Source of the DNA: a virus
Length of the DNA: 35,816 nucleotides
Direction: 5' to 3' (one strand)
IMG/VR virus record: IMGVR_UViG_3300021335_000046
Span: 1 to 35,816 of that record
Part shown: positions 1,541 to 18,440 of the stretch, in pieces
Numbering within the stretch: position 1 is the first letter of the stretch
Layout of the letters: every line of letters begins with the position of its first letter
Made by a program: the position numbers and the translations under genes
Notes under the pieces: generated by a model
Told to the model about the DNA's origin: nothing
The model's input: the letters and a program-made list of their open reading frames with translations, nothing else
Database searches by the model: none

Positions 1541-1649
1541 AATAGATAAGCCGAAAGTTAGAAGAAAAGGTGTTCATGCAAAAACTAAAACATCTAAATC
1601 TAAATCAAGTAAGCTTTATATAAAAAAATATAATGGACAAGGTAGATGA
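1515..1649 (+). CDS. Very small Lys/Arg-rich protein (44 aa)
   Basis: A 44-aa protein with about 40 per cent Lys plus Arg: it begins MARQQIIAKIDKPKVRRKG, continues through a KTKTSKSKSSK run and ends KKYNGQGR. Small proteins of this appearance recur in AT-rich marine phages (memory, not a search). No function is established to my knowledge. It overlaps the 58-aa gene by 26 nt and the SET-domain gene by 17 nt, so three frames are read in succession in this stretch. The composition suggests nucleic-acid or nucleotide-polyanion binding, or ribosome association; none is proven. The ATG at 1515 is the only start. Confidence 0.65.
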   Translation: MARQQIIAKIDKPKVRRKGVHAKTKTSKSKSSKLYIKKYNGQGR

Positions 1650-2037
1650 ATCTATAAAGGACTGGTGGAAATTACTTAAAGATAATAATATAGACTACTA
1701 TAAATTAAAAGAGTATTTAAACTCTGATTTGTGGATAAAAGAAGTTGGTGAAGTTATTGATGATGAAAATAATAACTATACAATTAAAAAATCTCTTATA
1801 CACGGCAAAGGTGTATTTGCAAATTACAATATAGATAAAGGTAGAATTATTGGTTTAGGTTATTTTAATAATAGCAGAACTATGCTAGGTAGATATACTA
1901 ATCATTCGCATTTGAATAATGCTAAGTTTTACTATAAAGAAGATGCTATAGTTTTAATGGCTGAATCAAACATAGCTAAAGATGAGGAAATATTAGTTGA
2001 TTATAGACATCATTTATTAAACAAAAGTTTTATATGA
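1633..2037 (+). CDS. SET-domain protein methyltransferase-like protein
   Basis: A 134-aa protein with the three hallmarks of a SET lysine-methyltransferase domain. SLIHGKGVFA (residues 54-63) is the first beta element that contacts S-adenosylmethionine. RYTNHSHLNN (87-96) carries the NHS motif that binds the cofactor and forms part of the pseudoknot. EEILVDY (118-124) carries the catalytic Tyr region. The domain is compact, with no post-SET cysteine cluster and a short insert between halves. The first 45 residues are an unassigned acidic helical segment. Family knowledge says SET enzymes methylate protein lysines; a phage copy could modify a host ribosomal, chromatin or transcription protein, or a phage protein such as its Lys-rich small proteins. 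The target is unknown. It overlaps the 44-aa gene by 17 nt and joins the next gene by an ATGA overlap. Confidence 0.8.
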   Translation: MDKVDESIKDWWKLLKDNNIDYYKLKEYLNSDLWIKEVGEVIDDENNNYTIKKSLIHGKGVFANYNIDKGRIIGLGYFNNSRTMLGRYTNHSHLNNAKFYYKEDAIVLMAESNIAKDEEILVDYRHHLLNKSFI

Positions 2038-4287: not shown

Positions 4288-4361
4288 GGGGAATTAGCTC
4301 AGCTGGCTAGAGCGCCTGCCTTGCACGCAGGAGGTCATCAGTTCGACTCTGATATTCTCCA
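4288..4361 (+). tRNA. tRNA-Ala (anticodon TGC)
   Basis: A complete cloverleaf. Acceptor GGGGAAT pairs with ATTCTCC (one G-U). The D arm is GCTC/GAGC with an AGCTGGCTA loop. The anticodon stem CCTGC/GCAGG holds loop CTTGCAC with anticodon TGC, the variable loop is AGGTC, and the T arm ATCAG/CTGAT has loop TTCGACT. The discriminator base is A and the following bases are CA, so the full CCA end is not encoded and must be added by the host. It is the last gene of the + strand operon, 16 nt upstream of the terminator hairpin. A UGC anticodon reads GCA and, when modified, GCU, the Ala codons favoured in the AT-rich virion genes. Confidence 0.95.
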
Positions 4362-4377
4362 CATCTAAAAATAAAAA

Positions 4378-4450: not shown

Positions 4451-4702
4451 TTATTTTTCTCCACAAGGTTTACCTGTAGCTACATTAATCCAGTTTTCTT
4501 TTTCAAACCAGTCTCTAAGTGTAGCATCTTTCTTCCTTGCTCCTTTAACATTACTCTTAGCACTACGTCTATATTTTCCTCTAGACGCTGCATTCTTTTT
4601 AGCATTAACTACTTTTTGTCTTTCTTCTTTAGACATTGATCTTACCTTTGCAGCAGGTAGACAAACTTTTTTGGTGCCTCCACCTTTAATTTTTTTAGCC
4701 AT
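4451..4702 (-). CDS. Small Lys-rich basic protein, DUF5872-like
   Basis: An 83-aa very basic protein. The N-terminus AKKIKGGGTKKVCLPAAK, an Arg/Lys-rich middle, and the C-terminus DWFEKENWINVATGKPCG resemble the DUF5872-type small basic proteins I recall from large DNA viruses and marine phages. Two cysteines lie in the conserved VCLP and KPCG motifs. The ATG at 4702 shares its A with the upstream TGA (TGATG), which favours it over a GTG one codon earlier. It is the last gene of the late operon, 46 nt before the shared terminator. Function unknown; charge suggests DNA or polyanion binding, perhaps in the virion. Family naming is from memory. Confidence 0.68.
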   Translation of the reverse strand: MAKKIKGGGTKKVCLPAAKVRSMSKEERQKVVNAKKNAASRGKYRRSAKSNVKGARKKDATLRDWFEKENWINVATGKPCGEK

Positions 4703-5013
4703 CACTTTCTTTTACAACCAAAGTTTTTAGCGTAGTTAGCCATTTTAACCACTCGCGGTGTGTACTTATTTTTATTTTTCATTACTGCACTAGCCGCTGC
4801 ACAAGTAGATTTACCAGGCATATTTTTTTCTACCCATTTAGTAAATTTACCTTCGTTCTTTTTATCTATTTCTGGAAACTTTTCTTCTTTCATTGCAGGT
4901 GCTTTTGACCTGTTCATTTCCTTAATATGCTTTTCAACTGTCTTAGCTTGTTTGCCATGAGCAACTACAGCAGCTTTGAGTTGTTCTACAACTTCCTCTA
5001 AATTCTTTGCCAT
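4702..5013 (-). CDS. Small basic protein with KYTPRVVKMANYAKNF motif
   Basis: A 103-aa protein. The first half is a charged helix (EEVVEQLKAAVVAHGKQAK and following). The second half is a compact basic domain with GKFTKWVEKNMPGKSTCAAA and then NKNKYTPRVVKMANYAKNF, ending GCKRK. This second half resembles small basic domains found beside DUF5872-like proteins in phages and large viruses (memory, not searched). It carries two cysteines. The gene is coupled on both sides by one-base stop/start overlaps (TAATG upstream, TGATG downstream), so the three small proteins at the operon end are likely made together. Role unknown; abundance late in infection and charge would fit a virion DNA-binding protein. 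Confidence 0.65.
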   Translation of the reverse strand: MAKNLEEVVEQLKAAVVAHGKQAKTVEKHIKEMNRSKAPAMKEEKFPEIDKKNEGKFTKWVEKNMPGKSTCAAASAVMKNKNKYTPRVVKMANYAKNFGCKRK

Positions 5014-5168
5014 TACTTTTTCTTTTTACTTTTACCCATTTTACCTGGACCACCAGCCTTAGTACATCTAGTTCCCCATCCAGAAGCGTAAGCACTAGGC
5101 CACACTTTAAATTTCTTTTTAGCGGCTCGTTTACAAGCTGGACTTATCTTCATTGTTTTTCTTGCCAT
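5013..5168 (-). CDS. 51-aa basic protein with KVWPSAYASGWGTRC motif
   Basis: A 51-codon frame encoding a Lys-rich protein: MARKTMKISPACKRAAKKK, then FKVWPSAYASGWGTRCTKAGG, then a basic tail GKMGKSKKKK. The WPSAYAS block followed by a Cys is a recurrent short motif in phage and large-virus small basic proteins, as I remember it. It starts two bases after the stop of the giant upstream gene and its TAA overlaps the next ATG by one base. With the next two genes it forms a set of three small, Lys-rich, Cys-containing proteins. Function unknown. Confidence 0.7.
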   Translation of the reverse strand: MARKTMKISPACKRAAKKKFKVWPSAYASGWGTRCTKAGGPGKMGKSKKKK

Positions 5169-5170
5169 GA

Positions 5171-8100
5171 TTAGTTTCTTGTTCGTTTTCTTCTTGTTCT
5201 TGTACGTTTCTTTCTTGTTTTAACTTTAGGTTTATCAGCTTTATTTTTGCTACCTTCAAGTGTCCATTTAGGCCAACCACCAGCCATAGCTATTCTTTGC
5301 CACCAGTCATTTTCATCGTCTAACGCGCCTTCTAAATTTTCATATTTTAAAAGTACTCTATCTAAAGGTATGTTAGTTGTAGCAGACACTACTTTAGCAG
5401 CAGCTAAATAAGCTGGATTATCTAAAGCAAAACCTTTATCAAACATTTCTTGTCGTCTTTTCTTACTATCAAACTGCCAACCAGCTTGTCTTAATTTAGA
5501 TATTTTAGAACTAATTGGTGGAGCAAACTGTAATAACTTCCATACAGCATCTGTATATTCAGGTCTTGATCTACCTGATCTTTCGTATATGTCCATTAAA
5601 AAGTTTTTACCTACAGAAACTAAAGCACCTCCAATACCTAAACCTCTAAGTGTAGAATCTAACATACCATTTAAAGTGTTATAAACTTTATCATTGTCAT
5701 CATCTTCTTCACCAAAACCTAAAGCAAACATTGCCTGTTGTAGTGCATTGAATATTATATTTTGTACTACACCATAGTATATTATTTTACTAACATTAGC
5801 TTTACTACTGCCTCTACCAGCTGCTAAATCTTGAAAAGCTCTTTTTTGTAATCTAGCATATTGCATAGGTGTATTAGCAAACATAAGTATTAAACGACCA
5901 ATATCACTTGACTGTTGTTGAGATATTCTATCAGGTCTACTAGACTGTTGAGACTCTTCAGATATTTCTCTAAATTCTGTCATGGCTTTTGCTTTAGCCT
6001 CTGTCTCTGTCATGCCTTCATTCTCCATTAAATCTATTATTCTATTACGATAAAATGTAGCACCACCTAAAGCTATAGCAAAACTATCCGCGTATTGAGT
6101 TGGTAAATAACCTTTTTCCATTATGTAAGACAAAACAGCTTTAGCTTTATTTTTCGATGTTTTAGCTAAGTCAGCTATCTCAGACTCATTTATATTTATT
6201 CTAAGACCATCTCGTCTATCTCTTAAAAAATCAGAGTTCATCAACGTCATAAAGTCTTTCCAATATTGACCTTGATTAGCAAATGCTTTACCTGCTTTTA
6301 TAGGGTTATTAAAACCCCAATTTAAAAAGTTAACTGCAGATATTGTTTGAAGTATAGCTGATCTAGTATTAAAGAACATTATAGCAGCATTAGATCCGTT
6401 TATATAGTTAAGTATTCTATTGCTTAATCTATTGCCTGTGCTAGTTTTATTTCTACCACTCTTCATTCTTTGTAAAGAGTTTTCTAAAGCTTCTCTAAAC
6501 TTAGGTCCGTATATTGCTTCTATCTTGTTTAAATTTTCTTTACTAAATATAACATCTGCATTATCTTGCCACTCTTTTAATAAAGCAGAACGTTTAGTAG
6601 TGTTTAAACCATCTATTAAATCTGTAGTTATAGTTCCAGCTAACCACCCTTCTTGTGGCGCAGGGTATGGATCTTTATTTATCTGAGCTAATTGATCTGC
6701 AAATTGCTTTAATACAGGATCACTTTCAACTACATCAACTAATTCTTTAGTATCTGTTTTTGATAGTCCAGGTATAGTTACTCCTTGTTTATTCCACAAG
6801 TAAACTCTTACAGCTTGTTCATTAGTAAAGCCATCAACAGCGTCTTTAGCTAATGTTTTAGGAACATTTAAATCTTTCTTTAATTTTCTAAAGTCGTTCA
6901 TTAAATTAACTCTAGCTGTAGATAAATTTTCCATAGCTCTAGCAAAAGGATCAAATAAGTTTTCTTTATACCAAGCCATTTGTGCATCGCCTAGTTTTCC
7001 TTTACCTAAAGTTTTATATAATAAACCTGTAAAATCTTCAGCAGAAGGTGGTATCCAAAATTTAAATCTACCTTTGTTTGCACCTCTAACTTTTGCCTTA
7101 GCTTCTGAATATCTTTTTTCAGAAGCAATACCAGATTTTTGTTCTAGTATTTTATTAAAATCTCTATCTAAATCTTTAGCAGCTTTAATTTTAGCTTGCT
7201 GTACTTTAGACTTAACATCAATAACTTCTAGCGCGTCTCTAACAGCTTTAACATTTTGATAAGCGTCGTCAGCAAAATAAAAATCATTATATCCATCAGC
7301 TGCTTTATCTATTATCCAGTTAGCTTTTGCTTCACCTGTAGAGTTGCCTAGACCTGTTATATTTTCTATAGGTATATCAAGACCTTGACTATCTAAAAAT
7401 TCTTTAATAGCAGCTTGAGATTCAGGTGCTCTTGCCGTTAACACGAAAACGTCTTCTGTACCTCTAGCTTCTTGTATTTTTTTAGCTATATCTATTAGTG
7501 GACCAGGTTTACCTTTAGTTACTTTATTAAACTCAGAAAAGTCAAATACATAACCTTGCTCTAATAATGATTTACCTTGTGTTGCAAACTCTTCAGCATT
7601 TAATTTACCTTCAGTTCCATCAGGCGCAGTAAATAATACGTCGCTTTCTGTAGTAGCTAGAGTATCGTCAAAATCAAACACTCTGATTTTTTTAACAGGA
7701 GCATTAGGATCACGAGCTATTTTTAAAGCTTCATCAATTGTTTTAGCTTTACTAAGTACCTCAAACATACTCATGTCTTCTTCAAGATTTAGTACACCAG
7801 TTTCTTTTAACATTTCTTGATCAACTCTAGATGCTTCGTCTTTTGAAGCCATTAATCTTTTAGTGTTTAATTTCTCTTGTAGTTTACTTTTAGCAAACTC
7901 AGATTTATTTTGACCTGTTATTGGATTTTTAAAGTTATTTTCTAAATCGTTAATTACTTTACTTCTTAAAAAAGATAACTTACTAGTAGTACCAAAAGCT
8001 TTATCTTGCACGTCAAACAATACTTTAGGTCCTAGTTCTTGATCGTAGTCTACCATAAGCTCTAAAGCTTTTTCATTGAAAGCTTTTAATATAGATATAC

Positions 8101-11100
8101 GTTTGTAAGCTCTACCATTTTTAATTTGCTTAGCAAAATCTATCATAGCTTTAGTAACCTCGTAATTAACTAAAGCAGAAGCCTCCATATGTTCACCCTT
8201 AAATCTTAATACACTCATCAATACTTTAGGATCTAAATTACCATTAGTATATTCTACAGCTGCTTTATAGTCAGGGTGTTTTTTATTTATTTCTAATCTT
8301 GCTTTTACTTCAGGTTTTGCACCAGGTGGATTTAAACTCATATAATATTTACCCGTAACTGGATCAACAACAGGAGCTTGACTAACACCTTCAATTATTT
8401 GAACAGATGTTAATCTACTTAAACCTCTTGGCCCGTTTACGTTGTTAGTATTAGACTCATTTAATCTTAATATGCCAACTAAATTATCAGGATTATCAGC
8501 TATAACATCTAACATTCTAGTTTGTAAATAAGCTAAAGCTGGTACGTTGTTTGCATTGGCGGCTTCTATTCTACTACCAAATTTATCTTGTATCTCTTGT
8601 AACTTGTTACTAGAATCTGATATTAATATTTTTTGTATACCTAAAAATAAACCTTTGCCAGCATTTAATATTTCTATTTTCCTAGGATCAAATCCGTTTT
8701 TCTTTTTAAATGCTTCAACATCTGCTTCAGAAACTTTAGAAGTTATATTATTAAATTGTTTTTCTAAGTCTTCATATATTTTAATATCTTCTTCACTACC
8801 TTTTCTTAGATCTTTTAAAGCTCTATCAACCATACCAAACATAGACTTACCAAAATACTTAACAGCAACTGGATCTAGATTATTCATTAAAGCAGAAGAA
8901 GCTGTAGCCATTTGTTTTAGAGATCTTATATGAGTATCTTTATTTACTCTACTAAAATTATCGTCAGCATACTCTTGTCTTTGCTTAGCAAACTCTTCGC
9001 CAAATAGTTCTGCTTCATTTATTAAAGGTCTTCTAAATCCCATTATAGCTCTACTTAGCAAGTAAGATATTTGAGGATTTTCATCTATTGCCTTTATAAC
9101 AGCTGCAGGTAGCTTCATTTTTTCTAAATTAAATTTAGCTACTCTCCAACCTTTTCTAGCGCCATCATTCAAAAACTCTTCAATTCTATTGCCTACATCT
9201 TTTGAAAATTTAAAATCAACACCTCTGCCTACTTCACTAGCTATTTCTAACATCTCATCTGCTACTACATCGTCACCCATTAGCATATCTCTTTTCTCTC
9301 TTATATCTTCACTACGTAAAACTTCTTGTGCTGCGTCTAATCCTAGTTCTTCGCCTATTACTTCTGCTAATGCTGTTTGTTTTGAGGCAGGCCTACCAGT
9401 TGGCGGATCTAAATGATATTCAATAAAACGCTCTTGATTATAAGGAGCTTTTTCAAAAACTAAATTACCAGCTTTAGGATCTTTAACTCTTGTGCCAGCT
9501 TGTTGAGACTGATCTACAGTCATACGCTTTTGCTTGCCAGTTTCTTGATCTATAACAGGTTTTTTAAATGGCGCAAATCTTTTATTAAAAGTACGTTGTG
9601 GTACTTTATTATATATAGCTTCACCGTAAGTTTCTAAAAACTGTCTGTACTCAGGCGAGCTTGGCTTGCCCATAAGCTTTTTGACATCAGCCATTAAAAA
9701 TTTTCTAAACTGTTTTTCTAGCTCTGTAATAAACTTTCCTGACTCTACAGTTGGTAGCTTAGTTCCAAATGTCCTAGAAACAGTATTAACAACTTTCTCA
9801 AACAACGGATCTCCTTCTTTTATGTCTAATTGTTTACGTAAACTTTCAACTTCTTCTTCTAGTTTAGTATCTAGCGCTGTTTCTTCTTCTACAGCTATAT
9901 CAACTCTTTCAGAAATATCTTGAGTAAAGTCTGTGCCAAAATACTCATTAGCTATTTCAATAGCTCTTACTCTATAACCTGTTCTTTGATTATTAACAAA
10001 CTCACCAAGTGTTACATTTTCTTTGTACTCATCTGGCTTAGCATTATAAGCATCTATTAAATTAACAATACCTCTTGCACCAGTTAATATTTCATCAACT
10101 ACTATATCTTGATACAGATCAAAATCAGGTACATTACTATATTTGTTTCTTACATATCTTTCTACCTCTGGTCTAAACTCTTCTGCTATTTCAAAAGCAT
10201 CAGCACCTTCATCTTGTAGTTGACGTATCACAGTATCTTTAGCTCCTTTAATACCACGCTTTTCTCTAACAGCTTGACGTTTGCCTGCTAATTTTTCAGT
10301 GCTTTGTTTTCCTCTAGTTTTTAAATCTTCTGATATTTCTATACCTTCTTTCGCAGCACGTCTTATTGACTTGGTTAGTTTACCTTTTTTAAATGATCTA
10401 TTATAATCTCTTAAAAATCTAAATACATCTTCTTCAGTTTCAAACTTTAATTTACCAAATCTATCAGGCATTACTGTTGCTGCTAATCTTTGTACAAAGT
10501 CTTTTATTTGTTCTGTAAAAGTTCTATCAAACTTAATCTCGCCATACTCCATAGCTTCACTCATAAGTGTCATAGCTTCTTCAGCAGCTTCTGCGTCTTT
10601 AACTTCTGGATCTTTTAAATAGGCGTTTAATCTTTTATAAAATGTAGCAAGCTCAGCTCTTTTACCAGGATTACTAGTATCTATTGTTTTAAGTTTGTCT
10701 TTAATAGCTCGAGCCATACCTAAAGCATTTTCATCACCTTTAGCTATTGTAGCATCTAATACAGCGTGTAATACTTCATGTGCGCCTGTAAAATAACCCT
10801 TACTATCTTTAACTCTCTTTTTATTTATTAATACAAATTTTTCATTAGTACTAGGATCTACAAAGAAATTACCTCTATTACCTGCAGCTTGCTTACCGCC
10901 TGATAAACCTCTTTCATTTATAAAAGACTCAACAGCTGCATCGTCTTCTAGCTCAACAAACTTTGTGTTTAATCCTTCAGATATTCTAGCACCTTTTTTA
11001 TTTATATCCCCTGCTTTTACAAACTCAGTTTCTACAAAATTTATTTTTTTAAGCTTAGCTTTTTCTGCTTTTATTCTTTCGTCAATGTCTCCTTGAAACT

Positions 11101-13714
11101 CAGGCTCTAATCTTTGCTTTTGTCTTTCTAAAGATTTAATTTTAACCATAGATTCTATAGCTTCCTTCTTACCTTCTTGACTGAATTTTTTAGGCACTTT
11201 ACTACCAGAGTTTCTAGTATCAGCTATAGCATCCATCTCATCTTGATACTCTTGTTCTGTAAATGTTTTTTGAGTAACAGGATTCATTTTAAAAGTACCA
11301 TCTTTATTTTTGTACTTTTCATCTACGCCTTTTATTATTTTTTCAAATACTTTATTTTGCTGTACTAAATTGCTACCATCCCAGTTCCACTTGGTCATTA
11401 GATCTGTGGCAGCTGCTCTAGCTTCTACACCTAGTTGAGTTGTAGTTCTACCAGCAAAAGGTAATACAGCACCTATAATACCTCCAGCTTTAGCTGATTG
11501 TAATATAACATTAGGATCAACAGCTCCACGAGCTGCACCTAAACCTTTTGAAGATATACTACTACCAACAGCATTTAAAGTTTCTTGACCTGCTTCTGTA
11601 AACGCCTCTATCAAACCTGCCTTACCACTTGTCTTCATTAAATCTAAAGCTCTAGGTAAAACTTTATCAAACTCTCTTCTATATATAGAACCTAGAGCAC
11701 TTTTAACACCGTTTTTACTCACGTTTTTACCTAAGCCGCTTAACATCCCTTTGAATATTCTAGTTTGACCTAACTGTTCTAAACTAGCTTGAGCAATAGC
11801 TGATCCAGCTAACACCGCAGTGTCAGTGTATTTACCATTTAACACAGCATCAATATACTGTTCATTTGTAGGGTTTTTAACACCTAAATCTGCTTTTATA
11901 CCTTTTTCTATAGCATCTGAAAAACCATCACCAAAAAATGTAGTAGCATTTGCAAGAACTCCAGCAGTTGTTATTCCGGTAACTATCCAAGCAGGAGCAC
12001 CTACTGTACTAGCTACAGCAGCAGCAGCGCCACCTACCATATAAGGTAATGATTCACCAGTACCTAAAATAATATCATCAATACTAGGTATACCTTCCCA
12101 ATCAGCTTTTTTAGCTAAGTTTTTCCAAGCTTCTGATTCGTATTTTTTTAGTAAGTTTTCTTTAACATCTGATTCTAGTTCTGCTACTTTTTTATTTTGA
12201 GCATCTAGCATTTCCTTTAACTTAGAACCATATTGAGATCTATCGCCATACTTGTCGTAGAGTCTTTGCATCCTGTCTCTTTCTGCTACAACTCCTTTAC
12301 CTGCAAACGTATCTATATACCAGTTATCTAAGTTTTGTTTAGTTCTTACTCCAATATCTACTGCTGAAGATATAGCAGACTCACCTAATAAAGCTGTAGC
12401 TTGTGTAAGATCTGCAGCACCTGGAACGTAAGGTATATCAAATTTAGAAGCAAAATCATAAACAGCATCTGTAGTGCTATATAAATCACTAGTAGCTCTT
12501 CCTAATTCTCTAGCTTTACTTGTATATACGCCTCCTACAGCTTCACCTATAGCATCTACTCTTTTACTAAGTAAAGTATCGTCTTTTAATTTACCAGCTA
12601 ATAATGATTCTCTGTACTTGTAGAAGTCTTCGTTAGCTGCGTTTACACTAGCTTCAGTATCTAATTTGTATTTTTTTAATATAACATTTTTCTTATACTC
12701 TTCTAACTGAGGTTCTATAGCTTTAGCATAGCCTTTTATTTTAGCTTGTACTAATGGATCTGTATTAACCGCATCTGACTGAGCTGTTTTAAAATCTAAA
12801 TCTAAATCTTTTAATGTAGTAATATATTGATCTTCAGCATCAAGAGCTTCTAGTTCTTCTTCAGTATAGTCTTTAAAAAAACCACCAGATAAATCTTCAG
12901 GATTTATATCTCTAAATTTTGATTCGGCTCTTTCTTTAGTTTTGTTCTCTACACCTTCTCTATATTTAGCAGAAAGTTTAGGCTCACCACCACCTTCTTT
13001 TAATACATCACCTCGCCTCATAGCTTCTTCGTCCATAGCAGCCCACTCAGGTTCATACTCATATTCTACTTGTATATCACCACCAACTATAGAAGGCATG
13101 TTTTTAACATACTCTGTCTTTTGATCTTCACTTAAATTATCATTATCAAATATTTGTGTTATTTGATTTTCATAAACCTTAGTTGCATCTTCTCTATCAA
13201 ACTCTACTTCTTCGCTATTAACTTCAGATTCATACTTATATATCTCAGGGTATTGTGCTTTTCTAATATCAGCTATTGCTTTAGTAGCATCTGCTATAGC
13301 TTTGTTATCTTCTAACGAAGCTAATTGCATTTCAAAGTTTTGGCCTGGCAAGTTTAAACCTGTTTGATCAGATTTTAATTCCATACCACCTGTAAATATT
13401 TTATTATCACCTACAGTAGTATAGTTATCGTCTTCAAACTGTTGTTGCTTTTCTTCTTTTCTTTTATTATATTCCTTTTCTTGATCTGCTAAATTATCAA
13501 ACTCTTTTTGAACGTCTTCAGTACTGCCCATTTGAGTAGTAACACCACCACCAAACACAGCACTTTTCCACGTATCATAATCGTCATCGACGCCTAAGTG
13601 CCCATGTAGCCCTTGTAAATATTCACCGTTATCTTTTACAGCGTTTACCCAAGTGTCGTAATCATCATCAACATCTAGGTGACCGTGTAAACCTCTTAAA
13701 TATTCTTCATTCAT
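5171..13714 (-). CDS. Giant multidomain internal-virion / polyvalent-type protein (2847 aa)
   Basis: One uninterrupted 2847-aa frame, a quarter of the window. Order: two 27-residue YLxGLHGHL-VDDDYDTW repeats (4-53); charged helical region; Gly/Ala-rich hydrophobic segments near 556-595 and 735-757; a zinc-metallopeptidase motif HEVLH (H979-H983) with a possible third ligand at E1045/E1046; a helical region near 1190-1250; long coiled-coil stretches; a HAD-phosphatase domain about 2010-2180 (D2014-F-D2016-D-T2018, LTAR, then FADD with D2149/D2150); and a C-terminal region with FFNTRSAILQTISA near 2447-2460 resembling large polyvalent-protein domains. Hydrophobic helices lie near 2640-2675, and the tail is Arg/Lys-rich. 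No RNA-polymerase DxDxD loop is seen. Probably packaged and ejected with DNA, forming a conduit and carrying enzymes; inference from size, position after tail genes, and architecture. It follows two smaller internal-virion candidates. Confidence 0.8.
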   Translation of the reverse strand: MNEEYLRGLHGHLDVDDDYDTWVNAVKDNGEYLQGLHGHLGVDDDYDTWKSAVFGGGVTTQMGSTEDVQKEFDNLADQEKEYNKRKEEKQQQFEDDNYTTVGDNKIFTGGMELKSDQTGLNLPGQNFEMQLASLEDNKAIADATKAIADIRKAQYPEIYKYESEVNSEEVEFDREDATKVYENQITQIFDNDNLSEDQKTEYVKNMPSIVGGDIQVEYEYEPEWAAMDEEAMRRGDVLKEGGGEPKLSAKYREGVENKTKERAESKFRDINPEDLSGGFFKDYTEEELEALDAEDQYITTLKDLDLDFKTAQSDAVNTDPLVQAKIKGYAKAIEPQLEEYKKNVILKKYKLDTEASVNAANEDFYKYRESLLAGKLKDDTLLSKRVDAIGEAVGGVYTSKARELGRATSDLYSTTDAVYDFASKFDIPYVPGAADLTQATALLGESAISSAVDIGVRTKQNLDNWYIDTFAGKGVVAERDRMQRLYDKYGDRSQYGSKLKEMLDAQNKKVAELESDVKENLLKKYESEAWKNLAKKADWEGIPSIDDIILGTGESLPYMVGGAAAAVASTVGAPAWIVTGITTAGVLANATTFFGDGFSDAIEKGIKADLGVKNPTNEQYIDAVLNGKYTDTAVLAGSAIAQASLEQLGQTRIFKGMLSGLGKNVSKNGVKSALGSIYRREFDKVLPRALDLMKTSGKAGLIEAFTEAGQETLNAVGSSISSKGLGAARGAVDPNVILQSAKAGGIIGAVLPFAGRTTTQLGVEARAAATDLMTKWNWDGSNLVQQNKVFEKIIKGVDEKYKNKDGTFKMNPVTQKTFTEQEYQDEMDAIADTRNSGSKVPKKFSQEGKKEAIESMVKIKSLERQKQRLEPEFQGDIDERIKAEKAKLKKINFVETEFVKAGDINKKGARISEGLNTKFVELEDDAAVESFINERGLSGGKQAAGNRGNFFVDPSTNEKFVLINKKRVKDSKGYFTGAHEVLHAVLDATIAKGDENALGMARAIKDKLKTIDTSNPGKRAELATFYKRLNAYLKDPEVKDAEAAEEAMTLMSEAMEYGEIKFDRTFTEQIKDFVQRLAATVMPDRFGKLKFETEEDVFRFLRDYNRSFKKGKLTKSIRRAAKEGIEISEDLKTRGKQSTEKLAGKRQAVREKRGIKGAKDTVIRQLQDEGADAFEIAEEFRPEVERYVRNKYSNVPDFDLYQDIVVDEILTGARGIVNLIDAYNAKPDEYKENVTLGEFVNNQRTGYRVRAIEIANEYFGTDFTQDISERVDIAVEEETALDTKLEEEVESLRKQLDIKEGDPLFEKVVNTVSRTFGTKLPTVESGKFITELEKQFRKFLMADVKKLMGKPSSPEYRQFLETYGEAIYNKVPQRTFNKRFAPFKKPVIDQETGKQKRMTVDQSQQAGTRVKDPKAGNLVFEKAPYNQERFIEYHLDPPTGRPASKQTALAEVIGEELGLDAAQEVLRSEDIREKRDMLMGDDVVADEMLEIASEVGRGVDFKFSKDVGNRIEEFLNDGARKGWRVAKFNLEKMKLPAAVIKAIDENPQISYLLSRAIMGFRRPLINEAELFGEEFAKQRQEYADDNFSRVNKDTHIRSLKQMATASSALMNNLDPVAVKYFGKSMFGMVDRALKDLRKGSEEDIKIYEDLEKQFNNITSKVSEADVEAFKKKNGFDPRKIEILNAGKGLFLGIQKILISDSSNKLQEIQDKFGSRIEAANANNVPALAYLQTRMLDVIADNPDNLVGILRLNESNTNNVNGPRGLSRLTSVQIIEGVSQAPVVDPVTGKYYMSLNPPGAKPEVKARLEINKKHPDYKAAVEYTNGNLDPKVLMSVLRFKGEHMEASALVNYEVTKAMIDFAKQIKNGRAYKRISILKAFNEKALELMVDYDQELGPKVLFDVQDKAFGTTSKLSFLRSKVINDLENNFKNPITGQNKSEFAKSKLQEKLNTKRLMASKDEASRVDQEMLKETGVLNLEEDMSMFEVLSKAKTIDEALKIARDPNAPVKKIRVFDFDDTLATTESDVLFTAPDGTEGKLNAEEFATQGKSLLEQGYVFDFSEFNKVTKGKPGPLIDIAKKIQEARGTEDVFVLTARAPESQAAIKEFLDSQGLDIPIENITGLGNSTGEAKANWIIDKAADGYNDFYFADDAYQNVKAVRDALEVIDVKSKVQQAKIKAAKDLDRDFNKILEQKSGIASEKRYSEAKAKVRGANKGRFKFWIPPSAEDFTGLLYKTLGKGKLGDAQMAWYKENLFDPFARAMENLSTARVNLMNDFRKLKKDLNVPKTLAKDAVDGFTNEQAVRVYLWNKQGVTIPGLSKTDTKELVDVVESDPVLKQFADQLAQINKDPYPAPQEGWLAGTITTDLIDGLNTTKRSALLKEWQDNADVIFSKENLNKIEAIYGPKFREALENSLQRMKSGRNKTSTGNRLSNRILNYINGSNAAIMFFNTRSAILQTISAVNFLNWGFNNPIKAGKAFANQGQYWKDFMTLMNSDFLRDRRDGLRININESEIADLAKTSKNKAKAVLSYIMEKGYLPTQYADSFAIALGGATFYRNRIIDLMENEGMTETEAKAKAMTEFREISEESQQSSRPDRISQQQSSDIGRLILMFANTPMQYARLQKRAFQDLAAGRGSSKANVSKIIYYGVVQNIIFNALQQAMFALGFGEEDDDNDKVYNTLNGMLDSTLRGLGIGGALVSVGKNFLMDIYERSGRSRPEYTDAVWKLLQFAPPISSKISKLRQAGWQFDSKKRRQEMFDKGFALDNPAYLAAAKVVSATTNIPLDRVLLKYENLEGALDDENDWWQRIAMAGGWPKWTLEGSKNKADKPKVKTRKKRTRTRRKRTRN
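13556..13705 (-). repeat. Tandem 27-residue coding repeat in giant protein N-terminus
   Basis: Two copies, residues 4-26 and 31-53, share EYL-x-GLHGHL-x-VDDDYDTW followed by a small AV-containing spacer, with an exact 81-nt period. Protein identity is very high but many synonymous third positions differ (for example the DDDYDTW codons), so the duplication is old and held by selection on the protein, not a recent slippage event. The acidic, aromatic motif at the extreme N-terminus would suit a docking or packaging tag. Confidence 0.85.
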
Positions 13715-15381: not shown

Positions 15382-16086
15382 TTATGAAAATGCTCCTCCT
15401 GCTGCAGCAGTTGCAATACTACCTGCTGAACTTGCTACTGACTGTCCTATTCCAGATATAGCAGCTGTTCTAGCAGCTCTAGCATCTGCTGCGTTTTGCA
15501 TAGCGTTATCCATTAAACCTGCAGCTCTATCCATTTGTTTTTCTTTAAATGCAATAGCATCTTCTTGAACTGTTATATCTGCTTGACCCATTAATTGTTG
15601 TAAATTAGCGGCGCCTTGTGCTTTTGCTTTTTCAACACTAGCTTGGCCTTCAGCTCTCATTTTATTGTTTTGTGTTTCTTGAGCGTTTATACTAGCTGCA
15701 ATACCACGTTTACTTTGTAAAGCAGCTTGTGCTAAAGCAGTTGCACCACCTGCAGCTTGACCAGTTTCCATCATAACATCTAAACTGTTAGCAAGAGCTT
15801 GATCAGCTTGTTCTGCTTGCATTTTAAAAGCTTCAGTAGCAACAGTTAAATTAGCATAAGGATTACTTAAATCTTCAAACTGATTCTGCATGTTCTCATA
15901 CGGGTTTTTCATTACTGGTCTTTCAGCTTCTAAAGCTGTTAAAGCATCTTGTTGAGTCTGAGCTTGAGCATCTTGCCTTTGACCTTCTTTTTTAGCTTTA
16001 TTGGCTGCTATAGCACCACTGGTTATACCAGCGGCTGCTGATACTCCAGCTCCAATAAGTATTGCTGTTCCTGTTAATACTGCCAT
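15382..16086 (-). CDS. Ala/Gln-rich internal-virion (ejection) protein candidate
   Basis: A 234-aa protein opening with a hydrophobic glycine-rich segment (residues 4-27, LTGTAILIGAGVSAAAGITSG) followed by a long Ala/Gln/Lys/Glu helix, and closing with a second small-residue hydrophobic stretch (SSAGSIATAAAGGAFS). This layout, a membrane-inserting head plus an Ala/Gln-rich coiled coil, is typical of small podovirus ejection proteins that help form the trans-envelope channel, similar in style to T7 gp14 or P22 gp7. It is located directly between a GNAT-like gene and two larger internal-virion candidates. Sequence similarity to a named family is not claimed. Confidence 0.6.
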   Translation of the reverse strand: MAVLTGTAILIGAGVSAAAGITSGAIAANKAKKEGQRQDAQAQTQQDALTALEAERPVMKNPYENMQNQFEDLSNPYANLTVATEAFKMQAEQADQALANSLDVMMETGQAAGGATALAQAALQSKRGIAASINAQETQNNKMRAEGQASVEKAKAQGAANLQQLMGQADITVQEDAIAFKEKQMDRAAGLMDNAMQNAADARAARTAAISGIGQSVASSAGSIATAAAGGAFS

Positions 16087-16090
16087 ATTA

Positions 16091-16495
16091 TTAATTTAAT
16101 GTTTTAACTATTTCGTACGATGGCTTGTCATCTACGTGCCATCCTAATTCTTTATGTTTTTTAATAAGACTTTTATTTCTACCAATTGTGAACATATATT
16201 TTTTACCTGCGTTTTTAACAACTTGCTCAGCACCTAAAATTAAAGATGTTATAGCTGCATCTCTATCATCTTCTTTATATTTTGGATTAGATATAATCCA
16301 CTCAAGTAAAACTGCATTAGAGTTTGTCATATATAAAAACCCAGCAACGATAAGTGTTCCATCTTCAGCTTCAACCATTAGTCCACTTTCACCATCTTCT
16401 GGTAAAAAATCTTTTTTAATTGGTGGCCAGTCCCATGCCTTCCACCACTCTTCTAAAGTCTTATAATCAGACTTTGTTAATTTTCTTATTTTCAT
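16091..16495 (-). CDS. GNAT-like acetyltransferase-type protein
   Basis: A 134-aa protein that looks like a compact GNAT fold: an N-terminal KIRKLTKSDYKTLEEWW motif (first beta strand and helix), a central hydrophobic strand pair (EDGTLIVAGFLYMTNSNAVLLEWIISNP), an acidic helix with DRDAAITSLILGAEQVV, and a C-terminal IKKHKELGWHVDDKPSYEIVKTL. GNAT enzymes move an acyl group from acyl-CoA to an amine. The usual glycine-rich (Q/R)xxGx(G/A) CoA loop is not obvious, being replaced by NPKYKEDDRDAA, so it may be catalytically altered or structural. It sits inside the tail/ejection gene block with tight spacing (4 and 10 nt), suggesting a virion-linked role. Substrate unknown. Confidence 0.55.
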   Translation of the reverse strand: MKIRKLTKSDYKTLEEWWKAWDWPPIKKDFLPEDGESGLMVEAEDGTLIVAGFLYMTNSNAVLLEWIISNPKYKEDDRDAAITSLILGAEQVVKNAGKKYMFTIGRNKSLIKKHKELGWHVDDKPSYEIVKTLN

Positions 16496-16505
16496 TTAAT
16501 TTAAT

Positions 16506-18440
16506 TTATCTTGATGATATAGAGTAGTTTAATCCTACAGAATATAATTCTTTAAAACCACCTGGATCTGTTGTTGTATCTGTTGTAAATTCAACATCTA
16601 AATAATAGCCTTTTACACCTGATATTACATTACCAAATCTAATTTCGCCTTCGGCTGCAGGACTAGTATTGACTATATTAGCAACATATTTGTTTTCTTT
16701 TCTATTAAAACCAGCTCTAAGTAAAGGTGCATTTTGTGGGTTTGCAGATATTCCAGTATTACCAGCATTATCATAAGCTCCTTCTACGTAGCTTTTTATA
16801 TTTACAGCTACGTCATTACTTCTTTCCCAAGTACCTGTCCATGCGCCGCCTGTTGTTCTACTTGCTGAAGCTCCTGTTTTGTCAGATATAATTATACTAG
16901 CTTCCCAACCACTATCTCCTTCATATTCCATTGTTAAAAAATTCTTTTGTAATGAAGGTTGTGAATTTGCAACAACAGATACTTTAGCTCTATTATCTAT
17001 ACCATAAAATTGAGCATGAGGAATTGTATTATTATAATGTTGATACATGCCTTGTGTTATTTTAACAGTTGAATCACTATTCCAGTATCTATTGTTTAAA
17101 GTTAAAAAAGTATTTTTACTACTACCTATAGCAATAGGCGCATAACTATAAAAGCTAGGCCAACCTCTAACTTGCTCATCGTAACCTAAAGTATAATATG
17201 ATGTATCTGGTTTAGGCACAGTAGCTGTTGCGGGTTGCGTGTAAGTAGAAGCTTTATTTTCTTGTATAGATAATACGTATTGTTTGTTATAAGCATCCCA
17301 ACCTCCATAAACTCTACTTCTATTATCAGATATTAATCTTATTTTAGTTATACCTGTTATTTGACTTGATGGTAATGTTCTATTCATAAGCAAAAACGCA
17401 TCATTATTATTACGTCTCATGCCTATACATATAACATTTAAATCTACAAAGTCGTTTGGAGCAGAGCTATATGCTACTAATATTCTTTTACCTAAAGTAC
17501 CTATTTGTTTTGTTGGGTTTATAGGATCATTTGGCGTACCAAAAGATAGGCAGCTTTGGTTAAAGCTAGCAGTTGAAGAAGCACCTGCACCTAAGTTTAA
17601 GTTTATTTCAAAGTAATTAGTATACTCATCATTTAAAGGACTTAAATTATCTCTAAACCAATCACGCATACCATACTCAGATATTTCAGTAATACCATCA
17701 TGTGACAATCTTAATACAGCATTTCTATTTCTATCTACAAAATACTTTCTAAAAGCATATATAGCAAAACTTTCTGGGTTTTTACTTATACCATATTCAC
17801 CTGCATAAGGTACTAGTTCACCCATTACCTGCCTTTGCGTAGTTACACTACCTCCACCTTCAGCATTATATATAGCATTTTTATCTATTAGCGCTCTACT
17901 ACATTTATTCTCTTGTAATACTATTAAGTTGTTTTCTTCAGCATAAATTTTCTGTATAGAGCCAAAATCAGGATTAGCAGCTTTAGTTATGTTTGTGCCT
18001 ACTGGAAACTCATTAGTTCTATTTATACCTGTTCTAGAATTAAATATACCTGAATATATTAAAGCATTTAATCTATGCTGTTGTAGTGGCTCCTCTTCAT
18101 CTAAATAAGCTCTAACACCCAAAGACATAGAGTTGTTGTTAAAACCGCCTCTAATGTACATTTCTTCAATAATAAAGTTTTGTATTGTAACTGACTCATC
18201 TAACGTTATACCAGTAGGATTCCAAGCAGCTACATCAGCTGGCGTTCCGCTAGTTGATAAAAAAGTTAACGGCGGAGCTAACACATTATTAAGTGGCCAT
18301 ACTCCATAAGCAGCAGAAACACCGCTACCGCCTGGTACTATAGTAGCTCCAGTTTGTTTAATAGGCTGTGGTGTTAATATTTTCTTATTCCAAATACAAT
18401 TGTAATAGTCTACTTCTATAATAGGTAACTGATTAGCCAT
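16506..18440 (-). CDS. Tail-hub / stabilisation-type structural protein (644 aa)
   Basis: A 644-aa beta-rich protein. The N-terminal VDYYNCIWNKK strand is followed by IQNFIIEEMYIRGGFNNNS (about 86-104), then HRLNALIYSGIFNSRTG (122-138), and a highly ordered block with IYAEENNLIVLQENKCSRALI (165-185) and AVLRLSHDGITEISEYGMRDWF (241-262). This resembles proteins annotated as phage stabilisation or muzzle/hub proteins in crAss-like and marine podoviruses, which form the closed lower part of the short tail. Immediately downstream of the 1483-aa protein of the same style, it probably forms the tail tip with it. No catalytic motif is visible. The leader shares a 15-nt block with another intergenic region of this operon. 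Assignment is from remembered family style. Confidence 0.62.
   Translation of the reverse strand: MANQLPIIEVDYYNCIWNKKILTPQPIKQTGATIVPGGSGVSAAYGVWPLNNVLAPPLTFLSTSGTPADVAAWNPTGITLDESVTIQNFIIEEMYIRGGFNNNSMSLGVRAYLDEEEPLQQHRLNALIYSGIFNSRTGINRTNEFPVGTNITKAANPDFGSIQKIYAEENNLIVLQENKCSRALIDKNAIYNAEGGGSVTTQRQVMGELVPYAGEYGISKNPESFAIYAFRKYFVDRNRNAVLRLSHDGITEISEYGMRDWFRDNLSPLNDEYTNYFEINLNLGAGASSTASFNQSCLSFGTPNDPINPTKQIGTLGKRILVAYSSAPNDFVDLNVICIGMRRNNNDAFLLMNRTLPSSQITGITKIRLISDNRSRVYGGWDAYNKQYVLSIQENKASTYTQPATATVPKPDTSYYTLGYDEQVRGWPSFYSYAPIAIGSSKNTFLTLNNRYWNSDSTVKITQGMYQHYNNTIPHAQFYGIDNRAKVSVVANSQPSLQKNFLTMEYEGDSGWEASIIISDKTGASASRTTGGAWTGTWERSNDVAVNIKSYVEGAYDNAGNTGISANPQNAPLLRAGFNRKENKYVANIVNTSPAAEGEIRFGNVISGVKGYYLDVEFTTDTTTDPGGFKELYSVGLNYSISSR

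Follow-up and report, generated by a model that had tools for sequence, protein, structure and literature searches.

A candidate polyvalent, ejection-type giant protein of a marine flavobacterial phage combines an exchangeable Pnkp-like slot with a possible sigma-like domain

The best-supported reading of the giant ORF described here is that of a polyvalent, ejection-type protein whose domains have predicted functions and which includes an exchangeable Pnkp-like slot and, possibly, a sigma-like domain. The ORF lies in a 35,816-nucleotide stretch of viral DNA (IMG/VR record IMGVR_UViG_3300021335_000046; referred to below as the window), where an initial annotation, made from the letters alone, had noted one open 2847-aa frame without stating its strand. 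The frame is on the minus strand and runs uninterrupted for 2847 codons, from 13714 to 5171. A search with the giant protein retrieved an 89% identical ORF in one IMG/VR relative (L002) and partial matches in 13 further ones, and dozens of ORFs of 2200-3900 aa are found at the same place in relatives, full-length homologues ranging from about 2200 to 3900 aa. Together, the near-identical ORF and the dozens of equivalent large ones rule out a giant frame open by chance. When a profile of the C-terminal 675 residues was used instead, at least 568 IMG/VR stretches proved to encode this part of the protein, and 80 relatives were kept from among them. Metagenome-assembled genomes, several of which are Bacteroidota, contributed 12 contigs with a match to the same profile.

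Terminase, portal, scaffold-like, capsid and tail genes make up a minus-strand structural module that closes with the giant gene. By its TerL and portal, the phage lies close to Flavobacterium elemo, Cellulophaga phi38:1 and phi13:2/18:3/19:3, Tenacibaculum and Maribacter phages, and the Manatee Spring genome MW202828. Judged by sequence, this is a marine phage of flavobacteria, with a structural module akin to those of Cellulophaga, Flavobacterium and Tenacibaculum podoviruses. The giant gene is followed immediately downstream (4451-5168, minus strand) by three small Lys/Arg-rich ORFs of 51, 103 and 84 aa, which may bind DNA; the first of them reads MARKTMKISPACKRAAKKKFKVWPSAYASGWG...KKKK. 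A tRNA-Ala (TGC) gene (4288-4362) separates these ORFs from a ribonucleotide reductase gene, and a 134-aa ORF at 1633-2037 (plus strand) contains a stretch judged by eye to be SET-domain-like (HGKGVFANYNIDKGRIIGLGYF). The genes at the giant's end of the module are as follows.

5171..13714, minus strand: giant ORF P0001, 2847 aa
13717..15366, minus strand: 549-aa internal virion candidate in gp15-like position; positional match to phi38:1 gp100 (549 aa) and phi18:3 gp121 (MS-detected)
15382..16086, minus strand: 234-aa internal virion candidate in gp14-like position; positional match to phi18:3 gp120 (MS-detected)
16091..16495, minus strand: 134-aa GNAT-like protein in gp13-like position; homologous to elemo gp21 and to an MW202828 protein annotated as acetyltransferase
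16506..18440, minus strand: 644-aa structural protein matching the crassvirus muzzle C-terminal domain (crAss_MUZ_C, E 4.1e-5)

As had been proposed from the sequence, the giant directly follows two smaller internal-virion candidates, the 549-aa and 234-aa genes. If the 134-aa GNAT-like protein is included, in the place of T7 gp13, the gene order (134, 234, 549 and 2847 aa) mirrors the gp13-gp14-gp15-gp16 ejection cassette of T7. Late virion genes flank the giant, and adjacent small, middle and giant genes follow the tail genes in the T7-type arrangement. Cassettes of small, middle and giant ejection genes have been described in T7 and DEV (PMC10925440). No Pfam or named PHROG family, those of T7 gp13, gp14 and gp15 included, matched the three smaller cassette proteins, which are therefore not filed as T7 homologues; tblastn with the 549-aa neighbour likewise gave no matches. 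The muzzle C-terminal match in the 644-aa protein hints at a tail-end part common to flavophages and Crassvirales.

Syntenic giants are present in MW202828, elemoF, phi38:1 and phi18:3. The records of phi18:3 gp120, gp121 and gp123, the last being the syntenic giant, bear the note "experimental MS/MS proteomics analysis", and phi38:1 gp101 and elemo gp18 are labelled structural. Because BLAST yielded no direct match between the window giant and the giants of MW202828, elemo, phi38:1 and phi18:3, its presence in the virion is argued from position and from a chain of segment homologies: a relative with the same C-terminus as the window's (L009) matches the MW202828 giant (E 9e-27), which matches elemo gp18 (2e-9), which in turn matches phi18:3 gp123 (2e-10). 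The MS-detected gp123 is without HExxH and HAD, having only other segments in common.

Searches of the whole giant protein against Pfam, PHROG and PDB sequences returned phrog_415, on the HAD domain, as their sole match, and tblastn of a phage collection returned a single weak match, also on the HAD. From the N-terminus to the C-terminus, the following segments can be distinguished.

13544..13714, minus strand: N-terminal tandem tag (aa 1-57), EYLxGLHGHLxVDDDYDTW twice; also in L002, L018, L043 and L056
11981..12037, minus strand: moderately hydrophobic, Ala/Gly-rich segment (aa 560-578)
11453..11509, minus strand: moderately hydrophobic, Ala/Gly-rich segment (aa 736-754)
10415..10939, minus strand: zincin-type metallopeptidase-like domain (aa 926-1100); HEVLH 979-983 at 10766-10780, E1046 at 10577-10579
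9881..10261, minus strand: sigma-70 region-2-like helical segment (aa 1152-1278), from hhalign and a fold match to 5yix_A, sigma70 domain 2
9203..9763, minus strand: conserved domain (aa 1318-1504) with LMGxPxSxxY...NKRF...VID..TGKQ, from segment profiles
8453..8935, minus strand: confidently predicted helical bundle (aa 1594-1754), a module common mainly to L002 and L019
7943..8416, minus strand: divergent domain (aa 1767-1924) with a near-invariant EH (aa 1841-1842, DNA 8189-8194)
7160..7783, minus strand: Pnkp-like HAD phosphatase domain (aa 1978-2185); DFDDT 2014-2018 at 7661-7675
5222..7159, minus strand: all-helical conserved C-terminal module (aa 2186-2831), helical in the model and 50-65% identical across the family

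The HAD motif of the initial annotation was confirmed, DFDDT at aa 2014-2018 being accompanied by the remaining conserved HAD motifs (DxDxT, T, K, DD); of 92 giants with a HAD, 87 keep DFD[DE]T. With a model of aa 1950-2800 (pLDDT 73), the two top-ranking folds were Pnkp1 (4xru, Z 11.1, rmsd 2.6, 122 residues) and T4 Pnkp (2ia5, Z 10.5, rmsd 2.4, 111 residues), tied with non-Pnkp HADs whose Z-scores lie within 1 of theirs, so that the fold does not fix the substrate class. The domain matched phrog_415, "polynucleotide kinase", at 5e-8; its profile had no match among PDB sequences. A Walker A or 5'-kinase P-loop is absent from the window giant. In relatives L007, L076, L086 and L132-L137 (two of the last being contigs of L086 and L076), the HAD is split right behind DFDDT by a P-loop kinase of Zeta/Pnk type, always at the same cap-loop junction; this nested kinase matches Zeta_toxin/AAA_33 at about 3e-12 and phrog_505, polynucleotide kinase, at 1e-9. 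Two other giants (L138, L139) have the kinase directly before the C-terminus and no HAD. An ART-PolyVal-like domain is nested at the identical HAD cap site in L063 (E 0.001, under the cut-off), and L009 and L061 carry a different insert between HAD and C-terminus, DUF6934-like in L009 (E 1e-4). In L052 (aa 2131-2229) the HAD is degraded, the catalytic DFDDT and the middle of the domain being missing.

A phosphatase and a kinase that share a slot are what one would expect of end healing, and the alternation of HAD alone, HAD with nested kinase, HAD with nested ART-PolyVal-like domain and kinase alone suggests an end-healing cassette. An ATP-dependent DNA-ligase family scored over the cut-off in 16 of 19 long phage records and Rnl2-type RNA ligase in none of the 19, which weakly favours DNA ends; a search for T4 Rnl1-type ligase, run without a positive control, found none.

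The metallopeptidase motif also stood: HEVLH at aa 979-983 is joined by a distal glutamate, E1046, and H979, E980, H983 and E1046 are the sole invariant columns in alignments of 31, 39 and 50 sequences. Matches of giants to the SprT-like Pfam family are weak (E 0.04-0.09). When an AlphaFold model containing aa 905-1125 (mean pLDDT 70) was compared with known folds, this region resembled the N-terminal zincin-fold domain of anthrax lethal factor at Z 5.8 (rmsd 4.9, 161 residues), a score below the tool's quoted noise level and reported only because it agrees with the HExxH motif. Of the two enzyme-like parts for which the initial annotation had asked for a structural match, the HAD has one, and that of the metallopeptidase lies at noise level.

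By profile and by comparison of the model, aa 1145-1315 resembles sigma-70 region 2 weakly but specifically, and we lean towards accepting the likeness. A pattern in the relatives, GILDLIRAYDPESGVPLAAYINKFLPSRAI, was recognised as region-2-like before any structure. The fold search then placed sigma70 domain 2 (5yix, Z 5.3, rmsd 4.1, 87 residues) on model residues 248-355, corresponding to aa 1152-1259. Pfam and PDB profile searches for sigma region 2 in this segment were negative. Compared profile to profile with 15 bona fide sigma sequences, the segment gave E 0.01; once phage sigma factors were included, the value was 0.0019 over 67 columns, a better result than any of 100 column shuffles produced. 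When 57 windows from aa 905-2800 were ranked, first place went to the three that cover aa 1145-1315 (best E 0.0012, score 22.5; next unrelated 15.6); the reversed sigma-like profile scores 10.2 and a true phage-to-bacterial sigma comparison 32. These E-values are optimistic, because several alignments were tried and in one of them, the first sequence subset compared by hhalign, the sigma match was not above its shuffles, as it was in the wider set. Pfam scans of 15 members for region 4 (Sigma70_r4, r4_2) gave no match. A stand-alone sigma factor, about 250 aa long, is encoded in nine long phage records of the family (L175-L183).

The giant had been set apart from the multisubunit-type RNA polymerase of crAss-like phages on the grounds that no DxDxD loop was visible. 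Five D.D.D strings do exist, but none stands in a conserved RNAP-like setting. There was no RNA polymerase among the fold matches of the modelled giant segments, and a PF00940 search without positive control did not find a T7-like enzyme elsewhere in the family's phages.

Beyond its own relatives, the C-terminus is matched in Foldseek by phage proteins, several of them named ART-PolyVal-like, MuF C-terminal or large polyvalent protein-associated, in agreement with the polyvalent-type C-terminus originally proposed. HMMER found no Pfam LPD on the C-terminus and none in 15 members. Foldseek of aa 905-1965 against PDB gave nothing significant, and the VIA lists for aa 1300-1960 held no convincing known fold, a result uninformative in either direction. 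Matches of relatives to Pfam DUF and repeat families at E 0.01-0.1 were regarded as chance.

The repeats noted earlier are real: a 27-aa tandem repeat occupies aa 2-53 with 19/24 identities, and 19 of the set's 89 distinct N-termini bear repeats, compared with 0 of 89 internal control windows. The two hydrophobic segments are likewise present but only moderate, their Kyte-Doolittle value of 1.5 falling below the usual transmembrane threshold of 1.6. Tags of about a dozen or more unrelated types, roughly one fifth of them in tandem, are swapped among relatives with near-identical C-termini (L002-L107); L041 and L045, for instance, have close C-termini and different tags. The phi38:1 giant, gp101, has a tag of its own, LDEFGIPxKK twice. 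In other phages, a search for the tags found only the MW202828 giant, for one tag class. Possibly the variable tag is an address for packaging or ejection.

Segment profiles run against about 107 giants detected the C-terminus in nearly all, by construction, the HAD in 92, the metallopeptidase region in 63, aa 1100-1310 in 36, aa 1310-1560 in 32 and aa 1560-1960 in 4. On a tree of the C-terminal module, at least 5 state changes were counted for the HAD, at least 5 for the kinase and at least 40 for the coarse tag class; these counts are rough, as they come from a quick FastTree with several long branches and from tag classes defined by regular expressions, many tags falling under "other". As far as the sequences tell, N-terminal tags are exchanged at a high rate and hundreds of relatives swap the giant's parts in and out.

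It is probable that the giant belongs to an ejection cassette, is carried in the virion and delivers early functions that include a zincin and Pnkp-type end healing. In the scheme that we infer for its packaging and delivery, its cleavage, its substrate and the function of each domain, the giant would be the last member of the cassette (134, 234, 549, 2847 aa) and, on infection, would leave ahead of or with the DNA, supplying the cell with a set of early-infection functions. The two smaller proteins of 234 and 549 aa would most likely form a trans-envelope conduit, the variable tag would most likely dock the giant for packaging or ejection, and the helical C-terminus would most likely anchor it in the virion. 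The HExxH...E domain most likely acts as a zincin, cleaving the polypeptide to release domains. The slot before the C-terminus would be a Pnkp-type end-healing enzyme, a HAD 3'-phosphatase here and a nested 5'-kinase or a kinase alone in relatives, cleaning up broken DNA or RNA ends left by host nucleases and making them fit for resealing by a ligase. The delivered, multi-domain, polyvalent-type protein originally envisaged is thereby supported by context, the virion MS of phi18:3, the HAD fold, HExxH+E, the C-terminal folds and the ART-PolyVal-like insert of L063, delivery itself being presumed. New beyond the initial annotation are the Pnkp flavour of the HAD, the kinase and ART nesting in relatives, the sigma-like segment and the tag swapping. 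A more far-reaching proposal, which we consider doubtful, is that the ejected giant carries in a sigma-70 region-2-like domain, which the neighbouring metallopeptidase cuts loose and which steers host RNA polymerase to early phage genes and replaces the virion RNA polymerases of N4 and crassviruses, in addition to the exchangeable end-healing slot (phosphatase, kinase or kinase nested in phosphatase).

Other readings differ in what they make of the HAD or of the virion context. The protein could be polyvalent and ejected while its HAD acts on proteins or free nucleotides, as a host-takeover phosphatase or nucleotidase, and not on polynucleotide ends. This less likely possibility draws on the proximity in Z of non-Pnkp HADs (the Legionella effector phosphatase Lem4, Z 9.4, and several small-molecule phosphatases), on weak matches to phrog_1238 and DUF2608, and on the fact that zeta-type kinases can act on nucleotide sugars, one relative being annotated as UDP-N-acetylglucosamine kinase. 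However, the two top folds and the best PHROG are of Pnkp type, and the kinase that nests in or replaces the HAD also matches a polynucleotide-kinase PHROG. That the giant is mainly structural, a tape-measure-like or gp16-like channel protein in which the enzyme-like domains are inactive relics, would suit its large helical fraction, its Ala/Gly-rich hydrophobic segments, its position as last ejection gene and the degraded HAD of L052; it is improbable, since few positions are as conserved as the catalytic residues of HAD and HExxH, and kinase and ART-like domains have been inserted repeatedly with motifs that look intact. An HExxH domain could also belong to an assembly protease, and the giant might then be a late-expressed, non-packaged scaffold or protease that merely adjoins virion genes. 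We hold this to be very improbable in view of the virion MS/MS annotation of the syntenic phi18:3 gp123 and a cassette order matching known ejection genes.

In the very abundant marine flavophages, the results describe a repeatable architecture of giant, putative virion proteins in a family of at least 568 IMG/VR stretches. The phosphatase, kinase or nested slot in this family points to end repair brought from the virion, a plausible counter to nuclease-based defence, and the sigma-like segment, if true, would be a new way to start early transcription.

In gene order and sizes (small, middle, giant), the cassette is like T7 gp14-gp15-gp16 and gp73-gp72-gp71 of the Schitoviridae (N4/DEV), whose giant also carries an enzyme. 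The window giant differs from these ejection proteins in having no detectable sequence homology to them; no RNA polymerase domain was seen in it, and Pfam found no transglycosylase. With the Crassvirales cargo system (phi-crAss001 gp45-gp50, PMC10172136) the phage shares a podovirus-like virion of Bacteroidota and cargo genes that follow the tail genes, and the muzzle C-terminal domain recurs in the window's 644-aa protein; crassvirus giants are RNA-polymerase-associated (PMC10172136), whereas nothing of that kind was seen in the window. The end-healing kinase-phosphatases T4 Pnkp and bacterial Pnkp1 have the HAD phosphatase domain in common with the window giant, to whose slot relatives bring a P-loop kinase as well. 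In those relatives, unlike in T4 Pnkp and Pnkp1, the kinase is nested in the HAD cap loop or replaces the HAD; the window has the phosphatase alone, fused into a giant virion-type protein, and RNA ligase was not found. The words phosphatase, haloacid, P-loop kinase and sigma factor are absent from the main text on polyvalent proteins (Iyer et al. 2017, PMC5512222), and the Pnkp-type slot and the sigma-like segment therefore appear, relative to that main text, to be additions to the polyvalent repertoire. The window giant is also without a sequence-recognised Pfam LPD, in contrast to the proteins described there. It resembles them in combining disparate domains in one large protein, in its setting among late virion genes and, with less certainty, in its putative metallopeptidase-like domain and in a helical C-terminus similar to LPD-labelled phage proteins, and a relative may have an ART-PolyVal-like domain. 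At least two domains of unrelated activity are predicted in one polypeptide (HExxH+E and HAD in the window; kinase and ART-like in relatives), and on architecture and context, though less clearly on catalogued domains, the giant belongs with the polyvalent proteins.
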